DNA of 64,000 nt from Centroberyx gerrardi (taxonomy: Eukaryota; Chordata; Actinopteri; Beryciformes; Berycidae). A model generated the notes under the pieces. The model made no database searches. It was not told the DNA's origin and saw nothing but the letters and a program-made list of their open reading frames with translations. The stretch's first letter is position 1. Every line of letters begins with the position of its first letter. Where the stretch lies: positions 22,275,284 through 22,339,283 of the forward strand of contig NC_136004.1 of assembly GCF_048128805.1 (NCBI RefSeq), written 5' to 3'. A program made the position numbers and the translations under genes. Shown piece by piece: positions 12,824-15,800 of this stretch.

Positions 12824-15800
12824 CTAGTCAGTCTTGGGGCTGAAGGTGGCGCCTGGCCAGTCATAGATGTCTGGCAGGAAGGAGTCGTACTCGGTGTTCC
12901 AGACAGTAGCACGGACAAAGCTGTTCTTGTCCACAGGCTCAGGGTAGCGGAACGCCATGCCTTTAGCATAGACATACTCCACCACCTATAGCAAGACAGA
13001 CAGTTTAGTACTGACTCATACTGAGAAACAGACAATTCAGATAGAGAGACACAGCAGACATAAGTACTACAGAGAGAAAAACGGCAGTAGAATCGTAGTA
13101 AGTAAAATCGGCCAAAGATATGGGACAACCACAAGCAAATTTGATTTGGCAGCAGTTTTCTGGCATCTGGTCAGGCATCATGTCATCAAAATGTCACCTT
13201 ATGAACAGACATGATGTAAGCTAGGTGGCATTATTCATTTAGTGGCTAACTAAGTTGTTTGGGGTCATGTTGAGGTTGGAAAAGGGAAGGGATTGGCTAA
13301 GATTATGGGTAGAAAAGGTCAAATTTAGGCTGGGATGGTGATTCGGTTAAGGTTAGGGTCAGCATTAATTGGGCTAGCATTAGCAAAACCATTTGTCTAA
13401 GGTTGGGGTCAAACTAAGGACATTTAGGTTCACAGACAAGAGCTTAAAAGCTTTCAGAGGAATCAATATTTTCAGGAGACTTGCCTTGACAGCCATCTGG
13501 ACCGAGACCTCTCTGATGTTGGAGAGGGGAGGGTAGAGTCTGCCTTCTGCAAGCTCTTTATCTGTCACCTGCTCTGAAAGCGTCTGGAAGGACAGGAAAA
13601 CAGTGTTAGAAGGTTTGGTTGGTATCAAATACCAGGGTCCGACATACAGAGACATGAAAACTACCCGCTGATCATCAGTCTCTTTTATCAGATTTTTTTC
13701 TGTAACAACTGTAGTGAGTGATGCAATGAGATGACAAACTACAACCACAAACTATCAGGAGGGAAGTTGCAAATAAGCAATTATGCTTCCTAAATATTAG
13801 TAGTGAATCAAAACCTGTATGAGTCTGTAAATCAGCTCAGTCAAGCGCAAAACAAACAAAGATGTGGACTAGTTGAGCTTGAGTCAAGGCTGAGACTAGA
13901 AAAAGTCCAGTTGCATTTAAATTCAATACCAAAAGCAGTAGAATATCACATAATGTAGAGAGAATGATGGCAAGACAGGATCTCATGATTTTCATGATTG
14001 TTTGTGATTAACTGCTTTGGTCTTGGACAAAAATACAAGATCTAGCACAAAAAAATATCCAAGTCAATTCAATAAGACCGAGACTTTCAAATTGTTGCAT
14101 GTAGTCAAATGCAGTTCAAGGCCAGACTCAAGTTCTACAGCCAAAAAGGGAAGGACAGAGTTAAAAAAAAAGAGGAAGGTAGAGTCAGCCTTTTGCTAGC
14201 TTCTCATCTGTTAGCTGAGACACCAGGGTCTAGAGAGAGAGAGAGGGAACAGGAGACACCGCAGGGTTATAGAGGGTTTTGAATTAGCACATATAAGCAT
14301 ACGTGACAGATAGACAAAGTCTGAAAGAGGGAGCAGCATGGGGTGGGATGTGGCAAGGAGAAGATGAACTCAGGGCGGGGTAAAGAAGAGATAGATAGTG
14401 AAATACTTGGAGATGAGATGGTTCAGACCTTGGCTGCCTCCAAGAAGACCGTGTCGCTGATGTGTCTCACTCCACTCAGGATCACAGCCAGGGCCACACC
14501 TGCGACACACACAATACTCAAGCTTGGCATTTCTACTTGTTGACAAGTTCACATGTTTTATAGCAAACTGTGTTTATTTTTAATTTTAATGGTTTGTAAT
14601 TTACATTCAAGAAAGAAGAGAAGAGAAAACACACACCTACATTGGTGAGGTGCTGGCTGCCAGGGCAGACATCATATTGGGGTGCATTATTGAATAGACC
14701 TACTACTTTTCTCTATTTATATATATTTAATTGTAGTATGTACTTGTATTCTAATGTTTTTACACTGTTTTTATATTCTGTGAATCTTTACATTGAATCT
14801 GGTGGATCCTTGAATATTGTAGACATAAGGATGTGAATGGCCTGTCTTGGTGATGAATGGCCTTTCTAGACACTCTATTCCTAGGCTCATGCTGATTGCC
14901 CGGTGATGTCATTGATTTGGAACACCTGTTTTGTAAACTATATTTGTCACTGAGATTATGTGATATTTTATGCTGAAGAAGGCACTATACGTATGCCGAA
15001 ATGTTGATCCATAATATACAATAAAACCAATGCATCAGAGTTCTGAGTGTGCGGCTTCCCCCCTCTTCTGTTGTAATTTACATTCATCATCAGAGACACT
15101 TACTTTGACCGACACCTGCTAACAAGGCTTATGTTGTTTCTTAACACTACGATAACACACTATGTATGTACATTTTTCATAAACTCTCCTAGTCCTTAAT
15201 CTCAATTACATACATAGATTTTCCATTCCCTCTCACCTGGGAAGATGTAAGCGTTGTTCCCTTGTCCAGGAGTGAAGACACGGCCGTCACTCAGAGTCAC
15301 TGGATCAAACGGACTGCCACTGGCAAAAAGACATCGACCCTGGAGGACACAGAAGATGAAGGGAAAGAGTGATGGATGGAGAAAGAAAACGATAAAAAGA
15401 GGAATAGTTATTTGATAGCACAAGAACTCAAGTATTTTTAGAATGGTTAATTTTAGAGCGAGTCAAAAAGAGCAAGGATGAAGGAGTGAGTGAAGATGAA
15501 GAAAGGACAGATTTATGTTAGAATTATGTGATAAAGAAAGAAGGGAAAAGAGAGACATAAGTAAACAAAATATCAAACCGTACATCAGTGAGTGTGTAGG
15601 CGTCCTCTGCTGTGCACTCTGCTTTGTTGGTGGGGTTGCTCAGGGCGAAGATGATTGGCCGTTCGTTCAGGGTTCCCATGGCCTTGACGACATCATGGGT
15701 AAACAGCCGTCCAGCTCCTGACACACCTGAAAGAGGAAAAGAAGAAAGGTTGGTGCTTCTGTCATTATTGTCAATGTGAAATATTCCACAGCATTCAGAT

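Follow-up and report, generated by a model that had tools for sequence, protein, structure and literature searches.

The 461-bp insertion that interrupts a malic enzyme intron in the window, by which we mean the whole 64,000-nucleotide stretch of DNA analysed here, derives from a Penelope-like element (PLE), of which it holds a pseudo-LTR truncated at the 5' end. We put at roughly 90% the probability of the full explanation, namely that this truncated PLE pseudo-LTR carries an element-borne hammerhead motif in a decayed and most likely inactive copy. Taken alone, the window copy is an ordinary relic of little importance. The source genome searched throughout was that of Centroberyx gerrardi (778.9 Mb).

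The insertion and its carrier element

The exons flanking the insertion lie on the minus strand, and their joined peptide gave its best match to the NAD-dependent mitochondrial malic enzyme, ME2 (2.2e-19), compared to 1.5e-15 for the NADP mitochondrial malic enzyme and 3.6e-12 or weaker for other NADP enzymes. The insertion sits in the intron between these two exons and carries its hammerhead motif on the plus strand, so that the motif-bearing strand is antisense to ME2, as a preliminary description of this DNA had stated. It occupies positions 14610-15070 and is bounded by an exact 16-bp target site duplication (TTGTAATTTACATTCA), with the left copy at 14594-14609 and the right copy at 15071-15086. 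The same description had called it a clean insertion of 461 bp between perfect duplications; the length and the duplication were borne out, but the insertion is not of one piece, as its first part (14610-14671) is an inverted piece of the element tail, on the minus strand.

To place the remainder, we compared the insertion stretch with the genome, where it has at least 57 matched pieces, the window itself counted, and assembled a sibling set of 38 further loci around genome matches, with about 1.5 kb of flank each and a locus length of about 3-4 kb. Genome matches and longer siblings mark 14672-15070 (plus strand) as the 3' part of a Penelope-like pseudo-LTR. Four siblings (L002, L005, L010 and L012) extend 170-210 nt upstream of the point at which the pseudo-LTR starts in the window, and the window copy is therefore truncated at its 5' end. 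The sense counterpart of the inverted tail piece was found behind the pseudo-LTR in nine sibling loci (L020, L025, L029, L032, L033, L034, L036, L037 and L039). Head-to-head inverted pieces lying within 150 nt of each other, with the 3' ends pointing outward in each case, were seen in 8 of 39 loci, window counted.

The preliminary description had related the carrier to Penelope-like elements, and the siblings bore this out: in six of the 38 (L017, L019, L022, L023, L026 and L029) the pseudo-LTR is preceded by PLE protein matches that run in its own direction. The truncated window copy contains no PLE coding sequence. Two PLE protein probes were borderline in Pfam (GIY-YIG at 1.8e-4, just under the cut-off, and RVT_1 at 0.02), and a related open frame of 759 amino acids matched RVT_1 at 3.7e-9 and a C-terminal GIY-YIG domain at 3.5e-5, both above the Pfam cut-off. 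NCBIfam models run on this 759-residue frame returned only other reverse transcriptases and one unrelated family, all far below cut-off. The frame is uninterrupted and lies at G000:C9:26883560-26886400 (L115); further PLE matches with long open frames occur in the genome, and PLEs may have been recently active there. Collectively, the PLE features present are an open frame with reverse transcriptase and C-terminal GIY-YIG upstream of the pseudo-LTR (in six siblings and one related complete frame), a pseudo-LTR with hammerhead, a tail, a target duplication and inverted pieces at the left.

The arrangement suggests how the copy may have arisen. Target-primed reverse transcription would have started inside the element RNA, near the pseudo-LTR end, and the second DNA strand, by analogy with the Anolis PLE, may also have been primed, leaving the insertion with a short tail in inverted orientation on its left side. 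Both the inverted tail and the head-to-head pieces fit the model for Anolis Poseidon, in which reverse transcription begins internally and both strands are cut and extended.

Outside the insertion, Rfam models identified four 5S rRNA genes in the window on mixed strands, at 5054-5172 (plus), 6456-6574 (minus), 8078-8186 (minus) and 8874-8992 (plus). The third of these lacks about 11 nt in its middle, and short tandem repeat arrays occupy 8397-8675, between the last two.

Hammerhead motifs across the genome

The hammerhead is real at the level of the family, as judged from sequence comparison. A pattern for its core and cleavage site, CTGANGA-A-G...YGAAACGTC, had 281 matches in the genome, compared to 4 for the reversed pattern. 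The pattern itself fixes the core, the extra A, G10.1, the pyrimidine opposite G10.1 and GAAACGTC, and therefore only stem I and pairs 2-4 of stem II provide independent evidence. For the comparison of these stems we drew on the 100 of the 281 matches that were listed, of which 30 came with loci; from the other 70, 40 were taken for variety, which makes the sample non-random, and the 30 left out were largely repeats of sampled sequences or places of the window family. When recognised window-family places were removed from the training alignment, 41 clusters remained. Stem II length led us to drop 7, and 34 went into the alignment, among them one (L062) that beyond its cut site has some letters in common with the window family.

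Across these 34 sequences of other families, 77.8% of the cells of stems I and II were paired, a level that averaged 54.0% in shuffles and was reached by none of 500, and slid versions of the stem alignment had 24-38% of cells paired. Covariation was 0.647 against 0.246 in shuffles (0 of 500), with slid versions at or below 0.142, and 91 cells had changed on both sides compared to 37.8 in shuffles (0 of 500). Counted as pairs with change on both sides, there was no excess in the 34 sequences (8 against 7.8 in shuffles, reached by 388 of 500). Compensatory changes in stems I and II, which the preliminary description had set as its test, are thus abundant across families.

A covariance model built from the 34 other-family hammerheads (model R1) found its best window match at 14966-15012, with 17.6 bits and E 0.0039; this score is modest alone, and the E-value comes from a rough calibration. 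Together with the covariation, it bears out the earlier claim of a hammerhead motif inside the Penelope-like pseudo-LTR. On the 38 sibling loci, 25 scored 26-44 bits and six scored 15-23 bits at the expected place; seven had no match or stray matches only, so that 13 of 38 lay below 26 bits or had none. The second-best window match of R1 (29813-29866, plus strand; 13.2 bits, E 0.11) has a long unpaired middle and is probably due to chance.

The hammerheads also keep company with PLE proteins. Nine of the 100 listed follow a PLE protein match on their own strand at a distance of 186-863 nt, none lies upstream of one, and two are near a match on the opposite strand, while random placement gave a mean of 0.025 and a maximum of 2 in 1000 placements. 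This comparison covers the C1-C9 part of the genome (100 hammerheads, 66 of 131 protein places), uses an estimated length for C2 and includes two pairs, among the nine, that are near-identical copies.

A second pattern, with stem II fixed as GGC/GCC, had 196 genome matches and none when reversed. Among the 100 of these that were listed, GAAA is followed by CGTC or CGTT in 32, by one-step decay forms of these in 12, by ACGT in 13 and by CGCA or TGCA in 17; about 56 of the 100 are neither CGTH nor one step of decay from it, a hand-entered count with one wrong entry among them. The GUC form is thus the commonest but not the sole form among the matches listed. Besides GAAACGTC/T, many have GAAACGCA, GAAATGCA or GAAAACGT, and such motifs could represent additional classes of hammerhead that differ in stem III.

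The window copy: predicted cleavage site, register and extra A

In the window copy, the core of the minimal type I form found in PLEs, CUGANGA ... GAAA, is present as CTGAAGA (C3-A9) at 14973-14979 and GAAA (G12-A15.1) at 14998-15001. Between A9 and G10.1 stands an extra A (position A10) at 14980, followed by the 5' strand of stem II, GGCA, at 14981-14984, which is complementary to its 3' strand, TGCC, at 14994-14997; stem II covaries in other families. For all these parts the letters and coordinates are those of the preliminary description. The span of the motif follows R1, with the 5' strand of stem I at 14966-14972 and, in the family register supported by the model alignment, its 3' strand (GAT...) at 15006-15012. 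Between GAAA and that strand lies TGTT (15002-15005), which from the states of the family sites reads as a decayed CGTC, with cleavage predicted after 15005.

These states were taken from 41 of the 43 family places, the window included, which leaves 40 others; two places without a core were left out and a few of those kept align poorly. The base preceding CTGAAGA, G at 14972 in the window, is C in 34 of the 40 other places and G in none. At position 15.2, directly after GAAA, 31 of the 40 have C and 3 have T; at position 17 the numbers are 22 for C and 14 for T. Most family members thus have ACGUC where the window copy has AUGUU, and decay of the CpG sites in CGUCG is the best explanation for the window's UGUUG. 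In the family register 14972 G faces 15006 G, so that stem I is broken next to the cleavage site.

To determine where stem I begins, we compared registers in 79 places forming 47 clusters (70 sampled places and 9 window-family copies with an exact core; L001, the duplicate L007 and L071-L074 were left out). With stem I placed directly after GAAACGUC, 118 of 188 positions over the 47 clusters were paired, a number reached by none of 500 shuffles. Moved four positions on, to the register of the preliminary description, the count fell to 59 of 188, reached by 37 of 500 shuffles and near background. From these sequences, the form of the family is GAAACGUC, with stem I directly after GUC.

The preliminary description had instead drawn a monomeric type I hammerhead in which two A-U pairs (AU-GUUG-AU) make up stem III and the cut follows GATC, at 15009. 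Eight of nine stem I pairs can indeed be drawn in that register, but the near-background pairing across the 47 clusters speaks against it, and R1 aligns the window copy in the GUC register. The fold is further doubtful because it needs G2.1 (14972) and T15.2 (15002), bases present in 0 and 3 of the 40 other family places, and it would have to cut at the triplet AUC, absent from most natural hammerheads according to the title of one cited paper. We therefore regard this fold as very improbable. The case illustrates that folding a decayed copy by eye may yield a ribozyme that looks plausible yet is wrong, and that comparison with siblings decides the matter.

In the preferred reading, the hammerhead would be part of the PLE, and two tandem copies would pair through the self-complementary ACGU that follows GAA; the dimer would then cut after GUC and separate tandem element RNAs. 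We infer this action as a dimer from the palindromic ACGU together with the literature. In the window copy, CpG decay would have turned ACGUCG into AUGUUG, and a C-to-G change would have broken the first pair of stem I, most likely leaving the copy inactive. GUU is a triplet allowed by the hammerhead rule NUH. The AUGUU of the window copy is possibly still cleavable, and weak activity is possible; with the first stem I pair lost and GUU in place of GUC, the copy is probably inactive or nearly so.

The extra A, which had been called unusual, is not so: 37 of the 40 other family places also have A at this site, 2 have G and 1 has C, which also answers the question whether other copies share it. 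Genome-wide, patterns with A at the site had 281 matches (control 4), those with C, G or T had 11 (control 9) and those with no base there had 12 (control 12). A few of the 11 other-base and 12 no-base matches look like true hammerheads in their sequence, and the extra A is consequently nearly, not strictly, invariant. It is a general and nearly invariant property of these motifs in the genome.

Could the motif be something other than part of a PLE? A chance resemblance within an unrelated repeat would agree with the silence of Rfam. The hammerhead hit proposed earlier as a check was not obtained in the whole window at gathering level, nor at E<=10 in 14550-15130 or in 20 sibling loci, in runs for which the Rfam models had no positive control. 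The loose motif pattern by itself is likewise weak, with one window match where 0.16 are expected and at least one in 16 of 100 shuffles. Such a coincidence is nevertheless extremely improbable in view of the 281 matches against 4, the covariation of stems I and II and siblings that reach 44 bits with a model from other families. When monomers were folded as single strands, neither the window nor either of two family-like sequences gave a hammerhead; this would be expected if stem III forms only between two copies, and we draw no support from it.

The carrier could also be a metazoan retrozyme, a small tandem repeat that bears a type I hammerhead and, being non-autonomous, depends on the enzyme of another element to move. 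The window copy has no element coding sequence, and in the available text on amphibian retrozymes these, too, have type I hammerheads with a short stem III (PMC7229834). Against this stand the PLE protein matches upstream of the pseudo-LTR in six siblings, and no head-to-tail array of whole units was present in the loci read, with their flanks of about 1.5 kb each; a retrozyme is in our judgement highly improbable. The probability is close to nil that the motif is a co-opted ribozyme regulating ME2 through an antisense transcript: nothing but its location in the intron speaks for that role, its strand is opposite to that of ME2, and at 14972, 15002 and 15005 its catalytic site differs from that of the family. 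We conclude that the insertion is best read as a truncated PLE pseudo-LTR with its own decayed hammerhead.

Comparison with known hammerheads

Minimal type I hammerheads of Penelope-like elements were reportedly treated by Cervera and de la Pena in 2014 and by Lunse, Weinberg and Breaker in 2017. The portions available of three publications describe minimal hammerheads without stem III in PLE pseudo-LTRs, in thousands of copies in many animal genomes and possibly acting as dimers (PMC7761336, PMC6155905, PMC6466107). The window family resembles the published motifs, as far as the available text describes them, in its place in the pseudo-LTR, the want of a real stem III, the palindromic ACGU and the dispersal of its copies (PMC7761336, PMC6155905), whereas in the window copy the consensus bases C15.2 and C17 are gone, as is the first pair of stem I. 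It is a new, decayed member of this published kind.

Another parallel is the Poseidon element PAc of Anolis. According to the part of its description available, the element RNA is reverse-transcribed from an internal start, with cutting and extension of both DNA strands; the hammerhead required the element protein for cleavage, and mutating the hammerhead had no effect on insertion in vitro (PMC11167929). As here, the PAc hammerhead lies near the junction of pseudo-LTR and ORF, and insertion ends derive from an internal start of reverse transcription (PMC11167929). In PAc the ORF starts at stem II, while the ATG at 14970 in the window stops after 14 codons (read by eye in the window alone). 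The PAc hammerhead has been assayed, whereas the window copy is known from its sequence alone.

For the extra A, the titles and abstract openings listed in our literature searches on PLE hammerheads make no mention of it, and the accessible portion of a 2011 survey of hammerhead variants treats insertions at other core positions (PMC3088659). The near-invariance of this base poses the question of what A10 does where hammerheads work as dimers or together with a protein. One tentative and rather unlikely answer is that A10 is obligatory in the core of Penelope-type hammerheads here, and perhaps wherever dimeric, protein-assisted hammerheads occur, which would make them a distinct subclass with one more core nucleotide, selected for tuning the inactivity of the monomer or the response to the element protein. 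The (+) hammerhead of chrysanthemum chlorotic mottle viroid has the same insertion: in the available part of the report, its extra A between A9 and G10.1 moderately lowers the rate of trans-cleavage (PMC3705267). There A10 belongs to a viroid ribozyme, whereas the PLE motifs described here, from many element families, almost all have it.
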